The translations under genes were made by a program, and so were the position numbers. A stretch of 64,000 nucleotides of DNA, taken from assembly GCA_000421045.1 (NCBI GenBank), contig ATWC01000005.1, positions 1 to 64,000 of the forward strand, written 5' to 3'. Below are positions 26,371-57,140 of the stretch, piece after piece. This DNA is from Lachnospiraceae bacterium NK4A179. GTDB lineage: Bacteria; Bacillota; Clostridia; Lachnospirales; Lachnospiraceae. Each line of letters begins with the position of its first letter. The first letter of the stretch is position 1. The notes beneath the pieces were generated by a model that worked only from the letters and a program-made list of their open reading frames with translations, ran no database searches and was not told the DNA's origin.

Positions 26371-26609
26371 AAGACCAAATCGTTGAAGAGAAGAGTAAGC
26401 TGGCTGAAACACTACAGAGAGCGCCGCGAAAGCTGAGAGCGGTGTGTGAAGATACCTTCTGAAGACCACCTCTGAGAGGCTCCAATAAAGCCCGGGTAAG
26501 TCCCGTTAAAGACTTTGATGAGAGGCTGTTTGATAAACGGCAATCAGGGTGGAACCGCGCAGAACACATTATGCGTCCCTTTGTGAGATTCACAAAGGGA
26601 CGCTTTTTT
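26371..26609 (+). ncRNA. T-box leader of thrS
   Basis: A T-box riboswitch that reads uncharged tRNA-Thr. The T-box core AGGGTGGAACCGCG is at 26546-26559. The terminator is a perfect 13-bp stem, GCGTCCCTTTGTG / CACAAAGGGACGC (26573-26603), plus six Ts. Upstream stem I material (from about 26371) includes AGAGAGC and GCTGAGAGC elements and ACC triplets at 26454 and 26465, suiting a Thr specifier; which one is used is uncertain. Uncharged tRNA promotes antitermination in this family. Confidence 0.96.
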
Positions 26610-44610: not shown

Positions 44611-44625
44611 ATACCTAACTTAATG

Positions 44626-44717
44626 ATTCTTAAGGGAGTAATCGGCGCTAAGGCGCGACAAAGTCGTCATCACGGATAACAATCCCGGCTTTGTCTTAAA
44701 CGGTGAGACTTGAGTAT
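44626..44717 (+). ncRNA. yybP-ykoY (manganese) riboswitch aptamer
   Basis: GGGAGTA (44634-44640), ACAAAGTCGTCA (44658-44669), CCGGCTTTGT (44685-44694) and GGTGAGACT (44702-44710) are the conserved blocks of the yybP-ykoY family, and the middle two match the structurally studied Lactococcus aptamer as I remember it. P1 forms between ATTCTTAAG (44626-44634) and CTTGAGTAT (44709-44717). This family binds Mn2+ and usually switches expression on. The downstream genes are an ABC exporter rather than the usual MntP/TerC/P-type ATPase. Confidence 0.92.
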
Positions 44718-44746
44718 GGCTTTTTGCTGTACCCGGTCTCTTTTTT
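44705..44746 (+). terminator. Riboswitch expression-platform terminator
   Basis: GAGAC (44705-44709)/GTCTC (44736-44740) with an inner stem GTATGGC/GCTGTAC (44714-44720, 44726-44732), loop TTTTT, then TTTTTT. The 5' arm reuses the 3' strand of aptamer helix P1, so aptamer and terminator exclude one another, as expected for a ligand-ON switch. Confidence 0.8.
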
Positions 44747-44760
44747 AAGGAAATCTTCAG

Positions 44761-44792
44761 GCGGATACAGCATACAGTATCCGCTTTTTTTT
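44761..44792 (+). terminator. Second terminator in the same leader
   Basis: Perfect GCGGATAC/GTATCCGC stem (44761-44768, 44777-44784), 8-nt loop, eight Ts, only 31 bp before the ABC gene start and with no promoter visible after it. TACAGC (44766-44771) is complementary to GCTGTA (44726-44731) of the first terminator, suggesting linked antitermination. Confidence 0.82.
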
Positions 44793-44822
44793 GTGCGATA
44801 AGGATGGAGCAGGGAGGTGTTT

Positions 44823-45521
44823 ATGAAAATTACTGTGAAAGATCTGCACAAGTCTTACGGCGACGGTGACAGCAAGGTTGAAGTATTAAAGGGCATCAAC
44901 TGCAGTGTGGAAGATGGAGAGGTGTGCGTATTGCTAGGACCGTCAGGTTCAGGCAAATCCACGCTGCTCAATATCATCGGAGGTATTGAGCCCGCCTCAT
45001 CCGGAGCGATCCTTATAGGCAGTGACAGTACTGCAGATATGGATGAAAAGAAGCTCACGCTCTACAGAAGAAACCATCTGGGCTTCGTATTTCAGTTTTA
45101 CAATCTCATTCCTAATCTGACGGTAAAGGAAAACATTGAGGTTTGTTCGTATCTGAGTAAAGATCCGCTTGATATTGATGAACTGTTAAGGACTCTTGGT
45201 CTTTATGAACATAAGGACAAGCTTCCCTCACAGCTCTCAGGTGGTCAGCAGCAGCGTTGTGCTATAGGGCGTGCACTTGTAAAGAACCCGTCACTTCTGC
45301 TTTGCGACGAGCCCACAGGTGCGTTGGATTACAAGACATCAAAAGAGATACTTGTACTTATAGAGCAGATAAACAGAAAGTACAGGAATACGATAATCAT
45401 CGTTACTCACAATGATGCGATAAAGAACATGGCTCACAGGATACTTAAGATGCGTGACGGTATGATCGTTTCGGATATTGTTAATGAAGAGCCTCTTAGT
45501 GCAGCAGATATCGAATGGTAG
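44823..45521 (+). CDS. MacB/LolD-type ABC transporter ATP-binding protein
   Basis: 232 residues from ATG 44823 with GGGAGG upstream. LGPSGSGKSTLLNIIGG is Walker A, SQLSGGQQQRCAIGRAL the signature, LLLCDEPTGALDYKT Walker B and VTHNDAI the H-loop; LYRRNHLGFVFQFYNLIPNLTV is typical of MacB/LolD ATPases that drive FtsX-type permeases. The gene lies directly under the yybP-ykoY riboswitch and is followed by its permease with no real gap. Confidence 0.94.
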   Translation: MKITVKDLHKSYGDGDSKVEVLKGINCSVEDGEVCVLLGPSGSGKSTLLNIIGGIEPASSGAILIGSDSTADMDEKKLTLYRRNHLGFVFQFYNLIPNLTVKENIEVCSYLSKDPLDIDELLRTLGLYEHKDKLPSQLSGGQQQRCAIGRALVKNPSLLLCDEPTGALDYKTSKEILVLIEQINRKYRNTIIIVTHNDAIKNMAHRILKMRDGMIVSDIVNEEPLSAADIEW

Positions 45522-45530
45522 GTGATCGCC

Positions 45531-47798
45531 ATGATGAATCCGCTTAACAAAAGATTCCCAAAGGAATTCAAGGCCAATATCGGAAGATATATAAGTACAT
45601 TTATTCTGCTTGTCATAACCATTATCGTAGGTTCAGGTGCACTGATCGTAATGGAGGGTGCAAAGGCTACCATCGATGAAACGGATGTGGAGAATGCAGT
45701 AGAAGATGGTTTCTTCGAGACCAAGCATGAAATCTCCAAAGCGGCACTGAAGGCTATAGAAAAAAGAGATATTCATGTTTATGAAAACTTTTACATAAAG
45801 GATAAAGAGTTTGACGGCAATGCAAAGTTCTATGTCTTCAATGAAAGAAAGGAAGTCGATCTTCCGTCGCTTTTTGAGGGAAGACTTCCTGATGAGACCG
45901 CTGATGATGAGATAGCACTCGACCGTATTTTTGCATTAAACAGAAATATACAGATCGGCGACCGTATAGATGTTAACGGGGACGGTTTGCTGGTTACGGG
46001 GATCGTTGCACTGCCTGATTACAATGCACTGTTTCTGAATAACCAGGACATGATGATGAACACTAAAGATTTTGGTGTTTCGGTTGTTTCAGAGAGAACC
46101 TTTGGTGCCATGAAAGATGAGGGGCTCACATACAGATACAGTTATCGTTTTGATGAGAGGGATAAGACCGATAAGGAAAAGTCTGATGAGGCTGAGGAGA
46201 TATTTAAGATCCTTGTTAAGAATGGCGCTGATGTGCAGGAGTTCCTTACGGCCGAAGGCAATCAGAGTATCACTTATCTCAAGAATGATATGGGTCATGA
46301 CGGCCCCATGATCAAGATGTTTGTATATATCCTTGTTGCAGTGATAGCCTTCATATTCGCTGTGTTGACTGCCAATACGATCGAACAGGAGGCAGCGATC
46401 ATAGGAACACTCAGGGCGCTTGGTTATAAAAAAGGTGAGATAATATTCCACTATCTTGTGCCTACACTGGTGATAGCAACGCTTGCGTCGGCGGTAGGCA
46501 ATCTGCTGGGATACACGGTCATGATCGATGCGTTCAAGAGTGTCTACTATGAGATGTATTCGCTCCCGCCTCTCAGGATAAGCTTCAATGCAGAAGCCTT
46601 CATACTTACGACAGTAGTTCCGGTCGTGATCATGGTAGCGGTGAATTTCATAATGCTTTATGACAAGCTTTCACTTTCGCCGCTTAAATTCTTAAGAAAG
46701 GATCTTAAGAAGAGGCATCAAAAGAAAGCGGTCAGGCTTCCGGCTTTTGATTTCCTTACAAGGTTCAGGATAAGAGTGATACTGCAGAACAAGGGAAGCT
46801 TTCTCGTAATGTTTTTCGGTATATTCTTTTCAAGCTTCCTTTTAATGTTTGGCATAGGTCTGTCTCCGCTTATGGATCACTATGTGGATGAAGCCGATAA
46901 CACATTGACTTATGAATATCTGTATATGTTAAAAAACAAGGTTCCTGCGAGCGGTGGTGAAAAGCTTTATATGACGACGCTCTCCACACAGTATTATCTT
47001 TCGGGAAAGGATATGGATATTACATTCTACGGAGTGGATACTGACAAGTCCGACAGTTTGTTTGCGGATGCCTGCGTACCTGTTGAAAAAGGACAGATCG
47101 CGGTTACCGATTCATTTGCCAAGAAAATGAAAAAGAATGTGGGAGATGTGGTCCTGTTTAGGGATAAGAATACAGATGAATCGTATTATCTGGAGATAGC
47201 GGCGATAAACTCGTACACCAACAATATGGGCGCATATATGGACAGGGGACAGCTCAACAGGATGCTGGATAACCGGAATGATGAATACAACGCCTATGTC
47301 TCAAACGAAAAGCTTGATATAGATGACGAGGATATAGCCAAGTTTATGAAGCGTGATGACATGGTGGGTGCCGCAGCGCAGATGATGGCATCATTTGGTG
47401 GGATCATAACAGCATTTAATGTGTTCTCGATATTTGCATATATCGTGATCATGTATCTGTTAACAAAGGTCGTGATAGACAAGAATTCACTGTACATCTC
47501 ATTTATGAAGGTGTTCGGATATGAAAAGAATGAGATAAGAAAGCTTTATCTGGATGCTTCTGCGATAGTGACAGTCATTTCGTTGTTTATCTGTCTTCCG
47601 CTTGAAGTATGGTTTTTTAAGGCTGCGATGGTTTACTTTTCGAGTCTTATAGAAGGATATATGGATTTCTACCTTCCGACATCGGTATATGTAAAGATCG
47701 TGCTCATAGGTATCATTTCATATTTTGGAATAAATGCTCTGCATATGAACAGGATAAAAAAGATCCCGATGAGTGAAGCTTTGAAAAACCGCGAATAA
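45531..47798 (+). CDS. FtsX-family ABC permease
   Basis: 755 residues from ATG 45531 (AGGTGA upstream; GTG 45522 and ATG 45534 are alternatives). One N-terminal helix (TFILLVITIIVGSGALIV), a large extracytoplasmic MacB_PCD-like domain, then an FtsX domain (IKMFVYILVAVIAFIFAVLTANTI, split in the middle; GTLRALGYKKGEI), then a second copy with helix MFFGIFFSSFLLMFGIGL and C-terminal FtsX (FMKVFGYEKNEIRKLY). Exports or mechanically extracts an unknown substrate with the preceding ATPase. An HlyD-like gene follows, as in tripartite-like MacAB systems. Confidence 0.9.
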   Translation: MMNPLNKRFPKEFKANIGRYISTFILLVITIIVGSGALIVMEGAKATIDETDVENAVEDGFFETKHEISKAALKAIEKRDIHVYENFYIKDKEFDGNAKFYVFNERKEVDLPSLFEGRLPDETADDEIALDRIFALNRNIQIGDRIDVNGDGLLVTGIVALPDYNALFLNNQDMMMNTKDFGVSVVSERTFGAMKDEGLTYRYSYRFDERDKTDKEKSDEAEEIFKILVKNGADVQEFLTAEGNQSITYLKNDMGHDGPMIKMFVYILVAVIAFIFAVLTANTIEQEAAIIGTLRALGYKKGEIIFHYLVPTLVIATLASAVGNLLGYTVMIDAFKSVYYEMYSLPPLRISFNAEAFILTTVVPVVIMVAVNFIMLYDKLSLSPLKFLRKDLKKRHQKKAVRLPAFDFLTRFRIRVILQNKGSFLVMFFGIFFSSFLLMFGIGLSPLMDHYVDEADNTLTYEYLYMLKNKVPASGGEKLYMTTLSTQYYLSGKDMDITFYGVDTDKSDSLFADACVPVEKGQIAVTDSFAKKMKKNVGDVVLFRDKNTDESYYLEIAAINSYTNNMGAYMDRGQLNRMLDNRNDEYNAYVSNEKLDIDDEDIAKFMKRDDMVGAAAQMMASFGGIITAFNVFSIFAYIVIMYLLTKVVIDKNSLYISFMKVFGYEKNEIRKLYLDASAIVTVISLFICLPLEVWFFKAAMVYFSSLIEGYMDFYLPTSVYVKIVLIGIISYFGINALHMNRIKKIPMSEALKNRE

Positions 47799-47823: not shown

Positions 47824-47879
47824 TTTAAGGATAGTTTGAGAGTGATTTAAGGATTATTTAAGAATTCGAATTGTATTAT
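47824..47879 (+). promoter_or_regulatory. hlyD promoter with four 11-bp-spaced TTTAAG boxes
   Basis: TTTAAG 47824-47829, TTTGAG 47835-47840, TTTAAG 47846-47851 and TTTAAG 47857-47862 repeat every 11 bp on one DNA face, and 11 bases after the last is TATTAT (47874-47879). Direct repeats ending near -35 are typical for OmpR/PhoP-type activators; the nearby response regulator is the obvious candidate. Confidence 0.8.
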
Positions 47880-47910
47880 GAACACAGTTAATAAACAGGA
47901 GGGTTTAACA

Positions 47911-49401
47911 ATGAAAAAGAAAGGTATTGCAGTTTCAGTTTTAATGACGGGCGTATTTGCTCTTACAGCATGCGGTAAGATGCCGGATGCAGACCAGACA
48001 ACCGTTCTTGAGGAAAAGAATTTTACCAAGACGGTTATAGCAGACGGAACCGTTGAATGTGCCGATCCTGAATATATATACGCTGAAGACCAGCTTCCCA
48101 TCAAGGATGTGCTTGTAAAGGCAGGAGACAGCGTAAAGGCAGGAGATGTGCTCTGCGTGCTTGATACCACTTCTATCGAAAACGAGATAGAGCTTCAGCA
48201 GGCATCAATGGAACTTAAAGGAAGAAGCGTGAGCGTTGATATGGCAAGCGCTTCACATCAGTTAAGCTATTACAAGGAAGGTATCAACAGCGGAAAGGAT
48301 TCAAATCTCGTAGCTGCAGATGCAAAGGTAAGCCAGGCTCAGGCAGCATGGGCAACAGCATTAAAGAAGTACAACGACTACAAGGAGTCACTTGATCTGG
48401 GAACCAACCGTGAACTGTTAGCAGCTGATAACGCAGTCAACAGTACAGCAAATTCTCTTCAGCAGGCCAAGTCAATGCAGGAAGAGTATAAGGACAAGAA
48501 AGATGATGAAAATGAGCACATCACAAAGATAATGCTCGAGCAGGCTGAAGACAGTGTAGACAGTGCAAGCCTTGCATACTCACAGGCATTAAGGACCAGA
48601 GACAGCGTTCTCAGGGAAACAGATGTGGCTCTTGCAGATCTTGCGATGGCTGCAGGCACTGCACAGATGGATTATCTTATGGCAGTGAATGCAAAAGAAG
48701 CTGCTGTAAGAGATCTTAAGAATGCTAAGCAGACAAGTGCCGATTCATATGCAAAGGCTGAGATCGCAAGTGATATGTCTGTTGAAGAGATCAAGCTTGC
48801 ACAGCTTCAGACAAGACTTGCAGATGCAACCATCAAGGCAAGTAAGAACGGAACCGTTACATCCGTTAATAAAGATCAGGGTGAGCTTTCAACCGGCATA
48901 CTCTTCTCGGTTGAGGATACTACAGATCTTATTGTAACAGCGAGGGTGGAGGAATCAGATATAAATTCAGTCCAGGTTGGACAGAAGGCAAACGTTACGC
49001 TTAAAACAGATTCTTCTGATGTTTATGAAGCACAGGTTACATCAATAGCTCCGGCTGCTACTAAGAACAGTGCCGGCAAGACCGACACATCAGGTGATGA
49101 TGCCGAGTATGAGGTAACTCTTAAGGTACTTTCTCCGGATGAGAATATCAAGATCGGTATGAATACAGATGTTGAGATCACGGTATTTGAAGAGCCCGGA
49201 TGCTACTCAGTTCCCGACAGGGCTATCTACACTGACAATGATGGAAACTCATTCGTATATGCAGTCAGCAAGAGTGGTGATGTTAACAAGCTTTCCGTAG
49301 ACAAGGGTGTAAGCGCAGGTAAGACTACAGTAGTAAGCGGAAGCGGATTAAAAGACGGTGTAGTGATAGTAAACGACGCTTCGACAGAAGCAGCACAGTA
49401 A
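47911..49401 (+). CDS. HlyD/MacA-like membrane-fusion lipoprotein
   Basis: 496 residues from ATG 47911 with AGGAGGG. LTACGKMP is a lipobox, so it is membrane anchored outside the cell. A lipoyl half-motif (LPIKDVLVKAGDSVKAGDVL) precedes about 170 residues of alanine/glutamine-rich coiled coil. The second lipoyl half follows (ATIKASKNGTVTSVNKDQGEL, divided by turn), then a beta-barrel domain (VTARVEESDINSVQVGQ). Acts as the adaptor of the preceding ABC exporter. It has its own promoter with TTTAAG boxes. Confidence 0.92.
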   Translation: MKKKGIAVSVLMTGVFALTACGKMPDADQTTVLEEKNFTKTVIADGTVECADPEYIYAEDQLPIKDVLVKAGDSVKAGDVLCVLDTTSIENEIELQQASMELKGRSVSVDMASASHQLSYYKEGINSGKDSNLVAADAKVSQAQAAWATALKKYNDYKESLDLGTNRELLAADNAVNSTANSLQQAKSMQEEYKDKKDDENEHITKIMLEQAEDSVDSASLAYSQALRTRDSVLRETDVALADLAMAAGTAQMDYLMAVNAKEAAVRDLKNAKQTSADSYAKAEIASDMSVEEIKLAQLQTRLADATIKASKNGTVTSVNKDQGELSTGILFSVEDTTDLIVTARVEESDINSVQVGQKANVTLKTDSSDVYEAQVTSIAPAATKNSAGKTDTSGDDAEYEVTLKVLSPDENIKIGMNTDVEITVFEEPGCYSVPDRAIYTDNDGNSFVYAVSKSGDVNKLSVDKGVSAGKTTVVSGSGLKDGVVIVNDASTEAAQ

Positions 49402-49426
49402 GCAGTTCTCAGTTTTTCTAAAGCTG

Positions 49427-50653
49427 TTATCCTTTTCTGAATACGACGGTGACGGTGAAACGGTCCTCCCCTTCGGCCGCGAAAACGTCACCGTCCATTT
49501 CTTTCATAAGCTTTCTGCAGATATAAAGACCGAGCCCGCTGCCGGTTTTTTTTGTCGAATTTGAACCTCTGTAGAAACTGTCAAAAATATGATGAAGTTC
49601 ATCTTCCGGGATCTTTTCACCGGTATTGGATATGGATATAAGTCTGCAGTCCTCTTCTGCATCGAAGCTTATATGTATCTCTTTTCCGTCGCCGTATTTT
49701 ATGGCGTTTTCCATGATGTTCTGGAGCACTTCCACGGATCTGTCCCTGTCACCTTTTAAGAGACAGTCTCTATGTTCATCGATCATAAAATCGGTGCGGT
49801 CGATCTTTAATCTGTCGCGATAGTAATCCCTGATGGATCCTATGATCTCATCCAGATAGAATTCGGAATTATTGACTTCAAGATTAAGGAAATCATCTCT
49901 GGAAGCGGTTATGATATGTGATATATATTCTTCGATCTCATCGGCCTGTTTGTTGATGCCTTTGGCAATCTCTGCCTGCTTCTTGGGATCTTTGTAAAGA
50001 CCTCGTTCAATTGCTTTAGCAGAGAGTTTGATGGCCGAGAGCGGTGTCTTTATATCATGAGAGAGAGAGAGTAAGAGTGTTTTCTTCTGTTTTTCAAATT
50101 CAAGATCAGCTTTCTTCTTGTCTTCAAGCTGTTCCCTGAGCAGATCCAGACCCCATACAAAACGGCCGAAATACTTGTTTTTTTCTTCCTTTATGGGCAC
50201 GGTAAGATTTCCCTTTGCAAGCTCTTCCGGTACTTCCGTGAGCCTGTTGAAAGGCATGAGTATTTTTATTCTGAGATAGAAGAGGATAGCGAGGACAAAA
50301 AGCAAAGAACCTGCCATTATCAGATCGATAATGATGATAAGTCCTTTGGGGTCATAAAGAGCCTTTTTGTAATCAAAACGATAGAGCTTACCGTTAGAAA
50401 CGGCCAGGATATAATCACTGTTGCCGGTGTAAAAGGATGTGTCTGTCGGATCGGTTATTTCGGTGACATTGGTCACATATTTGCATGAGGAGATGTTATA
50501 AAAATCCCCGCTGTTTGCCAGGCGTTCGATCTCTATACGGTACTCACGTCCGGTATCTTTCTTACTGTACTTAACGAGCATCAGGTCGGCAACAGCTGTA
50601 ATAAGGATAAAAACAAGAATGACGGTTATAAAGATTCTGTTAAAGTTTTTCAT
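49427..50653 (-). CDS. Sensor histidine kinase
   Basis: 408 residues. Two membrane helices (about 8-27 and 112-132) flank a small extracellular loop of about 80 residues. HAMP-like region, HisKA with SLSHDIKTPLSAIKLSAKAI, HATPase with MENAIKYGDGKEI and GSGLGLYICRKLMKEMDGD. The N-box lacks a strong DxGxG, reading SNTGEKIPE. Start ATG 50653 overlaps the regulator gene by 4 bp. Likely senses envelope damage or an antimicrobial and controls the neighbouring ABC genes (inference). Confidence 0.94.
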   Translation of the reverse strand: MKNFNRIFITVILVFILITAVADLMLVKYSKKDTGREYRIEIERLANSGDFYNISSCKYVTNVTEITDPTDTSFYTGNSDYILAVSNGKLYRFDYKKALYDPKGLIIIIDLIMAGSLLFVLAILFYLRIKILMPFNRLTEVPEELAKGNLTVPIKEEKNKYFGRFVWGLDLLREQLEDKKKADLEFEKQKKTLLLSLSHDIKTPLSAIKLSAKAIERGLYKDPKKQAEIAKGINKQADEIEEYISHIITASRDDFLNLEVNNSEFYLDEIIGSIRDYYRDRLKIDRTDFMIDEHRDCLLKGDRDRSVEVLQNIMENAIKYGDGKEIHISFDAEEDCRLISISNTGEKIPEDELHHIFDSFYRGSNSTKKTGSGLGLYICRKLMKEMDGDVFAAEGEDRFTVTVVFRKG

Positions 50654-51312
50654 TGATACTTATATCCTACGCCCCATACGGTGATTATCTTCTGCGGATT
50701 TTTCTCATCCTTCTCGATCTTGCTGCGAAGTCTTTTTATATGTACAGTGAGAGTCTGGGGTTCGGAAACCGAATCAAAGCCCCAGATCCTGTTGAAAAGG
50801 AAATCCTTATTAAGAACCTTTCCTTTATTCTCGGCCAGAAGAAGGAGCAGCTCAAATTCTTTTATAGTCATATCAAGAGGCTTGCCGTCCCTGTATGCCT
50901 TGCATTCCGCCTTGTTTATCACCAGATCGCCGTCTACGATCTCGTCCTGTGAGTAGCGTCTTTTGAACAGTCCCTTGATCTGCGCGATCAGCAGATCGAT
51001 ATCATAAGGCTTTTCGATATAATCATCTGCGCCAAGAAGAAGACCGTTTAATTTGTCATCTTTTTCGGTCTTGGCACTGAGCATAAAGATAGGTGTGTTG
51101 CTGTCTTTCCTGATCTCGGAACATACAGCATAGCCGTCCATCCCGGGCAGCATGATATCAAGCAGTACCAGCTTGGCTCCGTACTGTCTGTATAACTTAA
51201 GTGCTTTTTCTCCGGAATCGGCAACGGACACGGAATAATTTTCCGCAGTGAGAAAGTCTCTGAGCAGATCAGATATTTCCTTGTTATCTTCTACAATAAG
51301 AATATCAGACAT
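50650..51312 (-). CDS. OmpR-family response regulator
   Basis: 220 residues. Receiver domain ILIVEDNKEISDLL..VLLDIMLPGMDGY..MLSAKTEKDD..GADDYIEKPYD with phospho-acceptor Asp at about 53; winged-helix output LDMTIKEFELLLLLAENKG..FDSVSEPQTLTVHIKRLRSKI..TVWGVGYKY. GGAGGGG upstream. It forms a 4-bp overlapping pair with the kinase. The shared 11-bp TTTAAG repeats before three nearby promoters fit its expected binding mode. Confidence 0.96.
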   Translation of the reverse strand: MSDILIVEDNKEISDLLRDFLTAENYSVSVADSGEKALKLYRQYGAKLVLLDIMLPGMDGYAVCSEIRKDSNTPIFMLSAKTEKDDKLNGLLLGADDYIEKPYDIDLLIAQIKGLFKRRYSQDEIVDGDLVINKAECKAYRDGKPLDMTIKEFELLLLLAENKGKVLNKDFLFNRIWGFDSVSEPQTLTVHIKRLRSKIEKDEKNPQKIITVWGVGYKYQ

Positions 51313-51330
51313 AAAAAAACCCCTCCAAAC

Positions 51331-51347
51331 AGAGTATATTTTACTCT
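51331..51347. promoter_or_regulatory. Inverted repeat in the regulator promoter region
   Basis: AGAGTA-TATTT-TACTCT is a perfect 6-bp inverted repeat just upstream of the response regulator ribosome site; it overlaps possible -10 sequences (TAAAAT or TATACT on the minus strand). The bound factor is unknown. The rest of 51313-51453 holds purine-rich repeats but no TTTAAG pair. Confidence 0.4.
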
Positions 51348-51453
51348 ATTTGAAAGGGAAGGGAAAGGGGAATGGGTATAAAAAGGGCTTTCCCTTTCGA
51401 AGATGGAGAGCAGCCAAAGGGGACTTAAAACTACTCTCCGCGAAATTGTCAGA

Positions 51454-52248
51454 TTACCAGCCCATCTCCATGAGCCATTCGTTCAGATGTCTTTCGCGCG
51501 ACTTGATCACTGATTCATCTGTGTCATCAAACTTGCCGAGCTCGTATTCGCCTTTAATATTGCCGTCTACGATGAAGAGCACTCTTGTGCACTTGGCTGC
51601 AACCTTTGCGTCATGTGTTACGAGCATTATGGTTGCGCCTTCGTTGTTTATACGGACCATCTCCTTCATGACTTCGTCGGAAGAAGAGCGGTTGAGCGCT
51701 CCTGTGGGCTCATCGGCAAAGATTATACGCGGCTTGTTTATCATGCTGCGTGCGATGCAGGCACGCTGCAGCTGACCGCCGGATACTTCATTGATATCGT
51801 TATCGGCAGTATCTATAATGCCGAACTTTCTCATGAGCTCCTCACCTCTTGCCTTGGTTTCCTTTCTGCTCTCGTGCAGTTTCTTGGACTGCATTGCGGG
51901 AAGGATAACATTATCGAATACTGTGAGATTTTTCATCATATACATCTGCTGGAATATGAATCCCATCTCATCAAGTCTTATCTCGGCCATCTTGTTGTCG
52001 GGGAGTTTGGTTATGTCCTGTCCGCAGAAGAATACCTCACCTGCGGTGGCCTTATCCATACCCGAAACAGAGTAGAGGAGTGTGGATTTGCCTGATCCGG
52101 AAGGTCCCATGACAGCGACCATCTCACCGGATGTTATTGTGAAGCTTACATTCCTTAAGACATTAAGCTGTCTTTTGTTTGTGATGTAAGTCTTGCAGAG
52201 GTCACGAACCTCTATAACGTTTTCTGCAGCCATTGCTGTGTTATCCAT
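51454..52248 (-). CDS. ABC transporter ATP-binding protein (MacB/BceA-type)
   Basis: 264 residues from ATG 52248, set by GGAGGAG seven bases upstream; the TTG at 52272 lies in the permease end. GPSGSGKSTLLYSVSG, NEVSGGQLQRACIARSM and IIFADEPTGALNRSSSDEVM are the nucleotide-binding motifs; FIFQQMYMMKNLTVFDNV is typical of BceA/MacB ATPases. It follows permease 1 directly, and probably also serves the paralogous permease 2, which has no ATPase of its own. Confidence 0.94.
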   Translation of the reverse strand: MDNTAMAAENVIEVRDLCKTYITNKRQLNVLRNVSFTITSGEMVAVMGPSGSGKSTLLYSVSGMDKATAGEVFFCGQDITKLPDNKMAEIRLDEMGFIFQQMYMMKNLTVFDNVILPAMQSKKLHESRKETKARGEELMRKFGIIDTADNDINEVSGGQLQRACIARSMINKPRIIFADEPTGALNRSSSDEVMKEMVRINNEGATIMLVTHDAKVAAKCTRVLFIVDGNIKGEYELGKFDDTDESVIKSRERHLNEWLMEMGW

Positions 52249-52264
52249 TTTATTCTCCTCCGTT

Positions 52265-54622
52265 TTATTCAAGGTTTGCCATATCGGAACTCTTGATCTT
52301 GTTTGTATAAAGTGATGTGATGAATACCGAGATCACCGTCATTGCTATTATAATGCCGGGGAAGACGGCTGTGATATTCAAAATATTATAAGTGTAATCA
52401 ACCTGTGAGATTCCTGTCATGCTAAATACGGGGTTCATCAGTGTTCCCGTAAGAGGAACAGAGAGTGCTCCGGCTAAAAGTACCGCAATGATCGCAACCA
52501 GGGAGAACCTGAGAACCTGCCAGGTAACCACATCGCCGGGCTTGAAGCCTATGGCTTTAAGAAGAGCGATCTGGTTTGTTTCACCGCTGATAAATGTTCT
52601 CTCCATAAGTATCGATATGAGCAGTACGACTATAAGTGAGATACCAAGGAGAAGTATCTTTATGGCATCAATAGGCTCTGCAACTCCCATGTTTACAGAA
52701 ACGAATGTGGCAGCGGTCTGGACTGACTTGAAATTATAATTTTCCTCCAGGAATCTGCATCTTTCTTCAGCTGTTTTCTTATTCGGATCATCCCTGTAAC
52801 CTATTATATAATAACCTACCATCGGATATCTGTCTCCGCCACGGAATGGCGGATCCTGACATAAGCGTGCCGATTCACCCATATTGTTAAAGGACTGGTA
52901 GATACCCGTGACCGTAACTTCTTTCATTCCATGTCCATAATCAACTTTTAAGGTGTCGCCGATCGTAAGATCATTATTGGCGGCAAGCTTCGCACCAAGA
53001 GCGATTTCGGACGGATCTGAAGGCTCGCGGCCTTCCGTGAACTTCTGCGTGTTCTCCGGAACATTGTAGCCTGTGGTAGTAAGGTAGTTGTCCTCAACTC
53101 CGTTTATCTCATAGTTGAGCATGAGCATATCTTCTGTATAGACATCGCAGGGGATACCGTCAGCATTTAACTTATCTTCAAATCTCTGACACAGATTTGA
53201 TACATCGTATCTGCGCATATCTTCCATGTCCTCGGGATACAGTTCGCAGACCACATCACCGTCTATCATCATGGCATCCATTAAAGTGTCGCTTTTTAAT
53301 GTTGTCGCAACGTTATCAAGGATAAGTATGATAAGTGTGCAGAGGCAGAAGGTAATGAGTATGGATATATAGCGCTTGGGAGAACTGAGTATGTCGTTGA
53401 GCGACATGTAAAGCGCTGTCTTTATTTTACTGTTTGGAATACGTAAACCTTTATTGCCTGAGAATCTTTCACCACCCTGACTGTAGCGTATAGCATCAAG
53501 CGGTGTGAATTTCTTTATCTTTCCTGTGCAGTGCCATGCATAGGCAGTGATCACGATCGCAATGAAAAGTCCGCCTGCTATGTTGGGGAGCACGCCTGCG
53601 GTGCTTTCAAGCACCATGCTGGCAGCCGATGAACTTAAGAGCAATTTGCCTACGGGTATGCTGAAAACTGTACCGATAATTGAACCTATGGCAGCTATGC
53701 CCATGTATTTGATCGTGTGGAGATATCTTATCTCGTAATTGGGAAGGCCTATTGCCTTTAAAACACCTATCTCCCTGAATTCTTCGTCAAGCGTGAAGTT
53801 TACGGAGAAGCGCAGGATAACGAAGGAAACTATTATCAGAGCTATACTGATGATCAGCATTATTATGCTTGCCAGCAGATCCATGATGTAGATTATCTTC
53901 AGGGTTGCCATATCCAGTGCCTGCTCATATGAATCCAGATCACGGGCAAAATCCTTTACTCCCTGAATGTCATCGGTAGCAACATATACGAAATAACCTG
54001 CATAATTGCCCGAGTTAAATACAGGATTGGAAATGATCTCATCAAAATCCCTCTGGTTTAAGATAAAACGTGAATTGCCGATCATGTTGGCATTTCCGAA
54101 GACTGCATCTTTCATAGGACCGTCAACGATCAGATCAGTCTTTCGTTTATCGATCTTTATGGTTATCGTATCGCCGGTCTTTATATCATTTATATCCATG
54201 AAGCTCTTGTTAAGATAGATGTGACCTTCATCAACCGAAGTGATCATTTCATTGTTTTCATTGAAGATTTTTTCGGCCGTATCGTTGATGCTGATAAAAG
54301 CAGGTGAAGAGCTTTTTAATTCAACTCCGTTATTTTCAACACAGTTTGAATACAGGTAAACTTTTTCGACACCGGCTGATTTTACGGCAGCACACTTGTT
54401 TACGAGCTTTTTGGTGTCAGACTCTGCACTTTTTCCGCTAAAGATCATTATCATATCTCCGGCACCGGCTATCTCATAGAAATGATCCAGACCTCCGGCA
54501 ACCGAAAGCATATTTGAGATGCCGCTTCCGGTAAAGAGCGATGCTATGAGAACAAAAAGAAGCAGTATGACGTTCATGGTTTTTCTTCTTTTTAAGTCTT
54601 TGGAAAGAATTCGAAATAACAT
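52265..54622 (-). CDS. Large FtsX-family ABC permease (paralogue 1)
   Basis: 785 residues, AAAGGGAG ribosome site. N-terminal helix MNVILLLFVLIASLFTGSGISN, an extracytoplasmic domain to about 240, FtsX block 1 (EFREIGVLKAIGLPNYEI), central helices, a second extracytoplasmic domain (about 445-640) and FtsX block 2 (NQIALLKAIGFKPGDVV). It is a clear relative of the next gene upstream (shared RRTMN-ILLLF, GDTI, FREIGVLKA, LKSD motifs). Probably an antimicrobial-peptide or lipid-stress type exporter with the following ATPase. Confidence 0.9.
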   Translation of the reverse strand: MLFRILSKDLKRRKTMNVILLLFVLIASLFTGSGISNMLSVAGGLDHFYEIAGAGDMIMIFSGKSAESDTKKLVNKCAAVKSAGVEKVYLYSNCVENNGVELKSSSPAFISINDTAEKIFNENNEMITSVDEGHIYLNKSFMDINDIKTGDTITIKIDKRKTDLIVDGPMKDAVFGNANMIGNSRFILNQRDFDEIISNPVFNSGNYAGYFVYVATDDIQGVKDFARDLDSYEQALDMATLKIIYIMDLLASIIMLIISIALIIVSFVILRFSVNFTLDEEFREIGVLKAIGLPNYEIRYLHTIKYMGIAAIGSIIGTVFSIPVGKLLLSSSAASMVLESTAGVLPNIAGGLFIAIVITAYAWHCTGKIKKFTPLDAIRYSQGGERFSGNKGLRIPNSKIKTALYMSLNDILSSPKRYISILITFCLCTLIILILDNVATTLKSDTLMDAMMIDGDVVCELYPEDMEDMRRYDVSNLCQRFEDKLNADGIPCDVYTEDMLMLNYEINGVEDNYLTTTGYNVPENTQKFTEGREPSDPSEIALGAKLAANNDLTIGDTLKVDYGHGMKEVTVTGIYQSFNNMGESARLCQDPPFRGGDRYPMVGYYIIGYRDDPNKKTAEERCRFLEENYNFKSVQTAATFVSVNMGVAEPIDAIKILLLGISLIVVLLISILMERTFISGETNQIALLKAIGFKPGDVVTWQVLRFSLVAIIAVLLAGALSVPLTGTLMNPVFSMTGISQVDYTYNILNITAVFPGIIIAMTVISVFITSLYTNKIKSSDMANLE

Positions 54623-54656
54623 ATCTTATGTCTCCCTTTTTCCTTTGTATGGCATC

Positions 54657-54690
54657 ATATTACTCCGTCAATTCTTAAATAATCCTTAAA
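54657..54690 (-). promoter_or_regulatory. TTTAAG-box promoter of permease 1
   Basis: On the minus strand TTTAAG (54690-54685), GATTA, TTTAAG (54679-54674), then 11 bases and TAATAT (54662-54657), with TATGAT three bases further on. The 17-mer TTTAAGGATTATTTAAG is identical to the last two boxes before hlyD. Confidence 0.82.
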
Positions 54691-54699
54691 CGGAAAAAA

Positions 54700-57075
54700 T
54701 TATTCGATATTTGAAATATCGGAGCTCTTGATGCCTTTCATGCTTAAGGAAGTAAAGAAAACAGAGGCAAGATTGATGACAAGTACTATTGCCGGGTAGA
54801 TAAGGAAAATGTTTGTGTAATTATATCTGAATTCAGGGTGGGAAACTCCCATGCTTGCAAATAATGGGGTTACGGCAAATGAGGTTGAGGGAATGGAAAG
54901 AACAGCCGCAAGCATGACAGACATGAGAGTAACGATCGCAAACCTTATCATATGCCATGCTATAAGGGAAGAAGCCCTCATGCCGGTTGCTTTAAGAAGG
55001 GCAATCTCATTTTTATCACCTGTGATAAATGTGCGTTCCATAAGAACTGACACAAGGATGATGACTAAGAGCATGATCGAAAACATCATTTTTTTAACCG
55101 CATCAAGAGGCTTGGCAGTACCGGTGGTGATCGCACAGAAATCGTTTCCGGCAGTTGCTCTGAGAAAGCCGTAGTTGTTTCCTAACAGCTCTATGCGTCT
55201 TTTGATTTCTTTGTTATCAGGATTGTCAGTAAAGTTTATATTGATGGTATTCGAAGTGACAATGGTATCCGTGATAGGGCTGTGTTCTGCTATACGTATG
55301 GAATAACCAAGGTTTGTAAAGCACTGGAAAAGTCCGCAGATCACAACATCCTGTGGACCATGTCCGTAATCGACCTGTATAGTATCACCGATCGAAAGAT
55401 CATATTCTTCGGCTATGGCGTGACTGACGGCAATTTCATTCGGGTTTTCGGGACCGCTTCCGGCATAGTAAGAACGGTCTTCTTGAAGAAAATTCAGGCC
55501 GGTCTGTGATGTGTATAAATGTCTTTTTCCGTCTATTTCACAGAAAAGAGGTTCTGACCGGCACATGGAAACACGGCAGGGGATACCGTCTTCATTGAAA
55601 CGTTCCTCATATTCATCCAGAATGGCATATATATCCATATCCCCGGAAGCTGTCAGTCCCATGATCTTAAGTATCTGTTCCCTGGAAAAGTCACATACAA
55701 CATCGGCTTTTCCTATCAGACAGTCTATCAGGGAATCACTTTTTAATGTGCTTGAAACGTTGTCGATGGTAAGGACAATGTGAGCGCATATATAGAATGA
55801 TAAAAATATTGTCAGATAGCGTTTGGGTGAGCATATGATATCGTTGATCGCAAGAAACAGAGGAACGGGAAGTTTTTTGTCAGGAATACGCATTCCTTTT
55901 TTCATAGTAAAACGCTCGCCGCTCTGCCCGAAACGAATAGCATCGAGAGGGGTGAATCGGTTGAGCTTTCTTGTGCATATCCAGGCATATGCTGTTATCG
56001 TGATTATGATGAGCAAAGCTCCATAGAAATTGGGTGCAAGACCGAATGAGCTTACAAGGATTATGGATTTTGAACTGTTCTTAAGCAACAGGTTTTCAAG
56101 AGGTATACCTGCAAAGAAGCCGATAAGAGCTCCCAATAATGCAATGGCACTGTATTTGATCATGCATAAGAGACGTATGTTTTTGTTTTTTATTCCGAGA
56201 GCTTTAAGTACTCCGATCTCTTTGAATTCTTCGTTCAGTGTGAAGGTTACGGAAAAATTAAGCACAAGGAAAGAAATCAGTATAAGGGCCACACTGAGAA
56301 CGAGGAGCAAAAAGGATGTCAGCAGATCCGTGATATAGAGAGCTATCAGAGAAGCTGTTGAATTGAAAAAGAGCAGTCCTTTAATTGTTGATGTATGTGT
56401 CTCCAGAGCCTTTACGTTATCGCTGTCAACGTAGTATAGCATTATGTTGAAAAGCGGATAATCGCGGAATGCGGGACATGAAGATAACTTTTCGTAATCT
56501 TTGTCATTCATGACAATTCTTACCATGGAAAGCATCTGAACATTTCCGAAAACCGCGTCTTTGGAGATCCCGTCTATCACAAGCGGAAGTTTCATTCCGT
56601 CTATATCGATCGTTATGGTATCGCCTGCATTTAATCCATGTATATTCATAAAGCTGTTGCAGAGCCAGATGTGACCTTCTTCAATATCTGTGATCTCACG
56701 GTTGTTTTCATCAAAGATTTTTTCTGACTGTCCGCTCTTAGGGATAAAAAGAGGAGGTGCACCTGATAATTTTTGGCCGTTTCTATCATTCAGACAGTCA
56801 TAGTAGTACAGTCCTTCTTCCGAACGGAAAGAGGATACCTCAGGCAGGTGTTTTAAGTATTCTTCTATTTCGTCCTTGTCACAATCACCCGTGAAGAAGA
56901 TAATGGCGTCTCCGGTCTGCGCCATTTCAAAAAATGTACCTACGCCGCCCCAGACTGCAAGCAGATTTGCCGTTCCACTTCCTGTGAACATTGAAGCGAT
57001 CACGATAAAAAGCAGGAGGATGGTATTCATCGTCCTGCGGTGTATCAGATCTTTTTTCAGGATAGTAAAGAACAT
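54700..57075 (-). CDS. Large FtsX-family ABC permease (paralogue 2)
   Basis: 791 residues from ATG 57075 with AAGGAGCGG; the longer frame to 57111 would start inside the -10 box. Same plan as paralogue 1: MNTILLLFIVIASMFTGSGTAN helix, extracytoplasmic domain, FKEIGVLKALGIKNKNI, central helices, second extracytoplasmic domain, NEIALLKATGMRASSLI, C-terminal SLSMKGIKSSDISNIE matching the SSDMANLE end of paralogue 1. A tandem duplication is clear, yet each copy keeps its own TTTAAG promoter. Confidence 0.9.
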   Translation of the reverse strand: MFFTILKKDLIHRRTMNTILLLFIVIASMFTGSGTANLLAVWGGVGTFFEMAQTGDAIIFFTGDCDKDEIEEYLKHLPEVSSFRSEEGLYYYDCLNDRNGQKLSGAPPLFIPKSGQSEKIFDENNREITDIEEGHIWLCNSFMNIHGLNAGDTITIDIDGMKLPLVIDGISKDAVFGNVQMLSMVRIVMNDKDYEKLSSCPAFRDYPLFNIMLYYVDSDNVKALETHTSTIKGLLFFNSTASLIALYITDLLTSFLLLVLSVALILISFLVLNFSVTFTLNEEFKEIGVLKALGIKNKNIRLLCMIKYSAIALLGALIGFFAGIPLENLLLKNSSKSIILVSSFGLAPNFYGALLIIITITAYAWICTRKLNRFTPLDAIRFGQSGERFTMKKGMRIPDKKLPVPLFLAINDIICSPKRYLTIFLSFYICAHIVLTIDNVSSTLKSDSLIDCLIGKADVVCDFSREQILKIMGLTASGDMDIYAILDEYEERFNEDGIPCRVSMCRSEPLFCEIDGKRHLYTSQTGLNFLQEDRSYYAGSGPENPNEIAVSHAIAEEYDLSIGDTIQVDYGHGPQDVVICGLFQCFTNLGYSIRIAEHSPITDTIVTSNTININFTDNPDNKEIKRRIELLGNNYGFLRATAGNDFCAITTGTAKPLDAVKKMMFSIMLLVIILVSVLMERTFITGDKNEIALLKATGMRASSLIAWHMIRFAIVTLMSVMLAAVLSIPSTSFAVTPLFASMGVSHPEFRYNYTNIFLIYPAIVLVINLASVFFTSLSMKGIKSSDISNIE

Positions 57076-57106
57076 AAAAGACCGCTCCTTGAATATGTAT
57101 GAACAT

Positions 57107-57140
57107 ATCATACATCAGATTATCTTAAATAAATCTTAAC
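57107..57140 (-). promoter_or_regulatory. TTTAAG-box promoter of permease 2
   Basis: On the minus strand GTTAAG (57140-57135), ATTTA, TTTAAG (57129-57124), 11 bases, TATGAT (57112-57107): the same geometry as the hlyD and permease 1 promoters. The stop codon of the upstream SulP gene lies within the first box. Confidence 0.8.

Follow-up and report, generated by a model that had tools for sequence, protein, structure and literature searches.

A conserved direct-repeat operator shared by three exporter promoters in a Lachnospiraceae bacterium is probably read by a neighbouring OmpR/PhoB-type regulator

In a 64,000-nucleotide stretch of the genome of Lachnospiraceae bacterium NK4A179 (contig ATWC01000005.1, positions 1 to 64,000; hereafter the window), the gene for an HlyD-type adaptor (hlyD) and two genes for FtsX-type permeases all carry TTTAAG-like boxes just ahead of a -10-like hexamer, which raises the question of whether three promoters of ATP-binding cassette (ABC) exporter genes answer to a single switch. 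The minus strand holds permease 2, permease 1, an ABC ATPase, a response regulator and a kinase, and the plus strand holds another ATPase, an FtsX permease and hlyD. A preliminary description of this DNA proposed that the response regulator activates all three promoters from these boxes. The comparisons reported here make it very probable that the shared operator is real, is conserved and switches transcription on in a way already familiar. What the sequences show is the anatomy of the sites, their conservation and their co-occurrence with the cassette; that a regulator binds there, that it activates and does not repress, and which regulator it is are inferred. With good confidence, the three sites can be read as operator-promoters from which one OmpR/PhoB-type regulator, most likely the one encoded at 50650-51312 (minus strand), would activate transcription.

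The anatomy of the sites is as first described. The hlyD operator (47824-47862, plus strand) contains four boxes at a period of exactly 11 bp, namely TTTAAG at 47824, TTTGAG at 47835, and TTTAAG at both 47846 and 47857. Boxes 3 and 4 constitute the conserved site, and boxes 1 and 2 form an additional pair that was seen in no relative. Each permease gene has the two boxes attributed to it: the permease 1 operator TTTAAGGATTATTTAAG (54674-54690, minus strand) is made of TTTAAG at 54690 and TTTAAG at 54679, and the permease 2 operator GTTAAGATTTATTTAAG (57124-57140, minus strand) of GTTAAG at 57140, which is one base off, and TTTAAG at 57129. The 17-mer said to be identical at two sites is indeed the same at hlyD (47846-47862, plus strand) and permease 1 (54690-54674, minus strand). 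At 3/3 sites the last TTTAAG is followed by 11 bases (N11) and then by the -10-like hexamer, which is TATTAT for hlyD (47874-47879, plus strand), TAATAT for permease 1 (54657-54662, minus strand) and TATGAT for permease 2 (57107-57112, minus strand).

Seven bases past the -10 hexamer, all three window sites have a CA, which is complete in 52/74 sites from relatives, and its position suggests transcription starts at 47886 (plus strand), 54650 and 57100 (both minus strand). Because the predicted starts for hlyD and permease 2 lie at 47886 and 57100, the start codons of these genes are probably ATG 47911 and ATG 57075 rather than the starts of the longer open reading frames at 47878 and 57111. 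With these corrections, the predicted transcription starts precede the start codons by 25-28 bases at the three promoters. The bases at the -35 position, 17 bp from the -10 hexamer, are GGATTA, GGATTA and GATTTA (a 1/6 match to TTGACA), and a scan of the region for sigma-70-type promoters returned 24 matches against 27.7 expected, none of which uses any of the three operator -10 hexamers.

This layout suggests how the switch could operate. Two head-to-tail 11-bp units would span approximately -41 to -19, the place of the -35 hexamer, where a dimer of the phosphorylated regulator would bind both units and recruit RNA polymerase to the -10 hexamer exactly 11 nucleotides past the second box, with transcription beginning at the CA seven bases past that hexamer. 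The targets would be the cassette's own permeases and ATPase, which resemble the exporter YbbAP, and additionally, in this branch of the genus, the adaptor gene hlyD of the neighbouring exporter. Two features of OmpR/PhoB-type activator promoters are present, namely direct repeats with a period of 10-11 bp that replace the -35 hexamer, and a nearby regulator with a receiver domain (Pfam PF00072) and a winged-helix Trans_reg_C domain (PF00486).

The design recurs at homologous permease loci. A single scan of a collection of species genomes supplied 78 loci, mostly from Lachnospiraceae, Ruminococcus, Oscillospiraceae or Clostridia, which are the best-scoring ones kept and not a random sample, and the pattern TTAAK-N5-TTTAAK-N10..12-TANNNT was sought within 200 bases of the permease start. 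All 78 loci have it, 64 exactly (61 at N11 and 3 at N10), 13 with one mismatch and 1 with two, and the best sites have a spacing of 11 in 74/78 and of 10 in 4/78. Shuffled upstream regions, scored at N11 only, gave 0 exact and 0.12 one-mismatch matches per 78. The 934 kb of these loci contain 67 exact matches, of which 64 belong to the query permease, 2 to second permeases and 1 to another gene, lying within 82 bases before a DUF4097-domain gene. The consensus of the 74 N11 sites reads ATTTAAKGATTATTTAATAATT, seven bases, TATAAT, five bases and CA, and the 11-bp operator unit has the consensus TTTAAKRATTW. Further boxes were found in 0/74 of these sites at -11 and in 2/74 at -22.

Closer to the source, 60 genomes including the source genome were searched, and six others have a permease match at E <1e-100 (G027, G003, G016, G010, G007 and G038). 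The permease carries the design in five of these six, with TTTAAT as the first box in G010 and G038. In G027 and G003, hlyD and the second permease carry it too, even though the regulator-kinase pair there has the opposite orientation with respect to the permeases. Outside the source genome, the hlyD operator turned up in these two genomes alone, all three being of the same genus. Between the three it is a run of 18 identical columns in a region that has otherwise diverged and whose neighbourhoods are rearranged in the two relatives. The four-box array was seen only in the source genome, the extra two boxes being absent from G027 and G003. The closest paralogous permease in the source genome (C2:102997-105336; locus L075 of G000), 40% identical to permease 1, has no ATPase homologue, no clear regulator (one 29-bit match) and no operator beside it.

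A matrix built from 71 relatives' sites scores 43.7 at hlyD, 34.3 at permease 1 and 17.9 at permease 2, and no other window site exceeds 5. A nearly identical matrix, which included locus L117 and omitted L092 and L093, gave up to 44.0 at hlyD, 34.5 at permease 1 and again 17.9 at permease 2, likewise with no other window site above 5, and a top score of 3.9 in 50 shuffled windows. Those three loci are contigs of the same-genus genomes G016 (L117, removed for the 71-site matrix), G003 and G027, and other same-genus loci may remain among the 71.

The box pair by itself is not specific, with 6 exact matches in the whole genome, 52 at up to one mismatch against 33 for the reversed pattern, and, when two mismatches are allowed, 16 in the window where 7.6 would be expected. 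The composite pattern is specific at its top end. The proposed scan for TTTAAG-N5-TTTAAG-N11-TANNAT over the 3.22-Mb genome yielded 3 exact matches, 2 of them in the window, and its sole one-mismatch match was the third window site; at up to three mismatches there were 95 matches, against 61 when reversed. The third exact match (C18:20429-20462, matrix score 24.0) lies some 35 bases ahead of a gene of the YccF family. Other candidate sites in the source genome are C1:62674, before a CotH-family gene (32.1), and C47:11965 (24.7), some 120 bases ahead of a putative oxidoreductase gene, so called from the look of its open reading frame. The regulon probably has further members, for which these sites are unconfirmed candidates. 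Matches of the shared 17-mer at C6:82414, C18:48651 and C30:3005 are not followed by TANNNT at N11, have matrix scores below 8, and were not counted as sites.

Co-occurrence with the cassette was assessed with the exact pattern TTTAAK-GATTN-TTTAAK-N11-TANNNT in 230 genomes (196 from the order and 35 from the genus, with the source genome in both). The pattern is found in 5/196 order genomes and 5/35 genus genomes, and the cassette permease in 6/196 (E <1e-90) and 6/35 (E <1e-100), respectively. It is present in 8/11 genomes with the cassette against 1/219 without it (G071), giving a Fisher p of 9e-12 that is only indicative because the genomes are mutually related. Also, the pattern was written after the sites in the source genome, G003, G027, G016, G010 and G038, so that 6/11 cassette genomes are not independent; in the independent five (G007, G063, G070, G076 and G177) it is exact in 2/5. 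G063 has an exact TTTAAT-GTTTG-TTTAAG-N11 site, missed through the stricter spacer. G007 and G177 were missed by the motif scans, yet each has a degenerate pair at exactly N11, which in G007 is GTTAAA-N5-GTTAAG followed by TATGAT (matrix score 35.1). As a separate observation, G076 carries a second site of the same design before a gene for an MFS transporter (L174:6132-6165, minus strand).

The most likely reader of the operators is the response regulator of the cassette. Homologues scoring above 200 bits occur in 68/78 loci, 39 of them downstream of the permease on the same strand, 24 upstream on the same strand and 5 on the other strand. The stretch SE.QTLTVHIK is near-invariant in these homologues, and in full it occurs in 0/16 paralogues of the source genome. 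In 34 of the 37 loci with an ATPase and a regulator in a row, the gap between them is at most 169 bases, and because of these short gaps positive autoregulation via read-through is likely in such loci. The proposal that the local regulator activates all three promoters gains strong comparative support from the presence of the design at 78/78 permease loci, of the regulator at 68/78, and from the near absence of the pattern where the cassette is lacking. The source genome has 17 OmpR-type DNA-binding domains, among which that of the local regulator is the probable reader.

Several observations weigh against a single local activator of all three promoters. The permease 2 site is clearly the weakest of the three. 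A regulator above 200 bits is missing from the fetched DNA of 10/78 loci; in 9 of these the contig runs out on one side or both, and the tenth, L127, has 6 kb on each side. Matches occur away from cassette genes in G071, at the second G076 site and at three other places in the source genome. No site accompanies the hlyD homologues of the distant loci L213 and L214. Furthermore, a weak promoter-like match (47836-47865, 9/12) overlaps the hlyD operator, where there may be a basal sigma-70 promoter. Finally, a paralogous regulator at C5:110 kb, 60 kb away, is the nearest paralogue of the window regulator (209 bits), and ahead of its own permease-ATPase cassette stands the pair TTTAAG-N5-TTTAAA, followed after 22 nucleotides by a -10-like TAGTAT. 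A chance match was considered for this pair (C5:105033; L064:6034) and dropped, given that the pair stands before a paralogous cassette.

The last of these points sustains the alternative that survives best, though it is an unlikely one, namely that another OmpR-type regulator, above all the C5 paralogue, mainly or also reads the operators, so that two systems would share the boxes or compete for them. A precedent is the pneumococcal transporter vex123, which has two different regulators as inducers (PMC11034029). In contrast, the N11 design follows the window's kind of cassette across the 230 genomes, and in a set of 20 distant cassettes an N11 site with a score of at least 18 was found in 6/6 whose regulator reaches at least 196 bits to the window regulator and in 0/9 with a regulator at 125-181 bits (one of them truncated); it was found in 0/5 with no regulator in the fetched DNA. 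Relatedness confounds this test, in which L204 and L212 are almost the same. Eleven of the 14 distant loci that lack such a site were inspected, and 10 (L198, L200, L201, L203 and L206-L211) have TTTAAK-N5-YTTAAD with TANNNT at a spacing of 22 (8 loci) or 21 (2 loci), that is, one repeat period further upstream, the same spacing of 22 as in the C5 pair; the remaining one has no pair. Among five relatives of the C5 permease, an N11 site is present in L221, L223 and L224 and absent from L222 and L225. Because the boxes are common to a superfamily and their distance from the -10 hexamer varies by one repeat, the sites may not be specific to one regulator, and cross-talk may occur.

It is more doubtful still that the local regulator uses these sites to repress or to switch rather than simply to activate. 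CiaR, a streptococcal regulator with similar sites, does repress one target, manLMN (PMC8317062), but the boxes considered here stand upstream of the -10 hexamer at a fixed distance, and the 1/6 match at the -35 position is as expected from contact between the regulator, once bound, and RNA polymerase. In favour of a likeness without function one can cite the AT-rich promoters and the paralogy of the two permeases, but an origin by chance is contradicted by the relatives' matrix, by the co-occurrence with the cassette and by shuffles that never came near the window scores, and functionless shared descent of duplicated promoters is almost certainly wrong too, considering that hlyD is no paralogue of the permeases and that the operator was kept while its flanks diverged.

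Activation by the local regulator might not be the only input to hlyD. This gene (47911-49401, plus strand), identified by Pfam on the longer open reading frame and having a lipoprotein-like N terminus, follows the two genes of the second exporter, an ABC ATPase and an FtsX permease (44817-47798, plus strand; Pfam). Because no terminator-like site is listed between that FtsX gene and hlyD, read-through from the leader-controlled operon may add to transcription from its own promoter. The preliminary description had spoken of a riboswitch-led exporter. What is seen is a leader RNA with terminator-like hairpins (44620-44800, plus strand), whose conservation extends to G027 and G003; it stands before the ATPase gene at 44817 rather than before hlyD, and no Rfam family reaches its cut-off there. 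It may resemble yybP-ykoY; the manganese riboswitch family RF00080 was not matched, with 0 genome matches at E 0.001. The best Rfam match is SSRC10 (30.1 bits against a cut-off of 56), and the leaders in L069 and L070 have no Rfam match up to E 1. In Streptococcus pyogenes, SSRC10 lies before a putative calcium transporter (PMC3675131).

The cassette itself encodes, on the minus strand, a sensor histidine kinase (49427-50653; Pfam) with two transmembrane-like segments by hydropathy and about 77 residues between them, an ABC ATPase (51454-52272; Pfam ABC_tran), permease 1 (52265-54622; 785 residues) and permease 2 (54700-57075 with the corrected start; 791 residues, 42% identical to permease 1; Pfam). 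Pfam finds two FtsX halves in permease 1, whose predicted fold is YbbP-like (AlphaFold2 predicted local distance difference test score 81.7). Its best Foldseek matches are the Escherichia coli YbbAP structures 9ge6 (chain 9ge6_A; TMq 0.63, root-mean-square deviation 8.8) and 9ge7 (TMq 0.48). Like YbbP, it is a full-length permease of two MacB-like halves in one chain according to Pfam, the predicted structure and Foldseek, and it differs in sequence, with 11-13% identity. The cassette ATPase scores 181.9 bits against the YbbA equivalog cut-off of 336. Between ATPase and regulator, a hairpin (51358-51320, minus strand) of 17 pairs followed by seven T ends at the regulator ATG and includes the likely ribosome-binding site GGAGGGG, so that a terminator or translational control is possible at this point. 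Elsewhere in the window, a T-box leader (26374-26583, plus strand) scores above its Rfam cut-off.

A broader idea, offered tentatively and with somewhat less than even confidence, is that one box grammar governs the whole superfamily of YbbAP-like cassettes, that regulator clades shift the box pair by one 11-bp repeat (11 or 21-22 nucleotides), and that single genomes have captured further genes, such as the adaptor gene hlyD of another exporter, by gaining the operator, so that one sensor would couple two export machines. The natural series of 11 or 22 nucleotides and two or four boxes lends itself to asking how well displacement by a full helical turn is tolerated by activators of the OmpR type. 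More immediately, the operator provides a testable, genome-searchable handle on an uncharacterised two-component system and its exporter cassette, with transcription starts predicted to the base and two start codons corrected.

The kind of operator is already known, and the regulon itself is without a report in the open-licence literature searched. Bce modules likewise encode a kinase, a regulator and a large FtsX-type ABC transporter together (PMC3023708), but they are defined by ten transmembrane segments, one large loop and a kinase linker of fewer than 11 residues, against 8-9 transmembrane-like segments by hydropathy, two large outer regions and a kinase loop of about 77 residues here; moreover, the Bce operator of Streptococcus mutans is an inverted repeat (TTACAA-N2-TTGTAA), not a direct one. 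The system was therefore not assigned to this class. Pneumococcal VncRS/vex123 is, by description, also a two-component system controlling an ABC transporter, and the VncR motif is called unknown in that source (PMC11034029). The PmrA box of enterobacteria has CTTAAG and NTTAAT half-sites 5 bp apart, on which a regulator of the OmpR/PhoB type sits in head-to-tail arrangement (PMC3973317). The window half-sites are similar, with T rather than C as the first base and different targets, and the window regulator scores 128.3 bits against the NCBIfam PmrA cut-off of 330.

A close parallel in operator design is with the streptococcal promoters of CiaR. There are differences: CiaR sites were predicted with the -10 hexamer at a distance of ten (PMC3091779), against 11 at 3/3 window sites and in 74/78 relatives (10 in 4/78), and the targets here belong to a YbbAP-like exporter cassette. 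Also, information in the present sites covers the full 11-bp unit (GATTA, AATT), and the second box is mostly TTTAAT in relatives. The likeness is one of boxes and of a presumed activator seated over the -35 position. CiaR also acts through a TTTAAG-N5-TTTAAG repeat placed immediately ahead of the -10 hexamer, with C favoured just before the start and activation as the usual outcome (PMC3091779, PMC8317062); this repeat is found exactly at hlyD and permease 1, and the GTTAAG of permease 2 fits the published NTTAAG.

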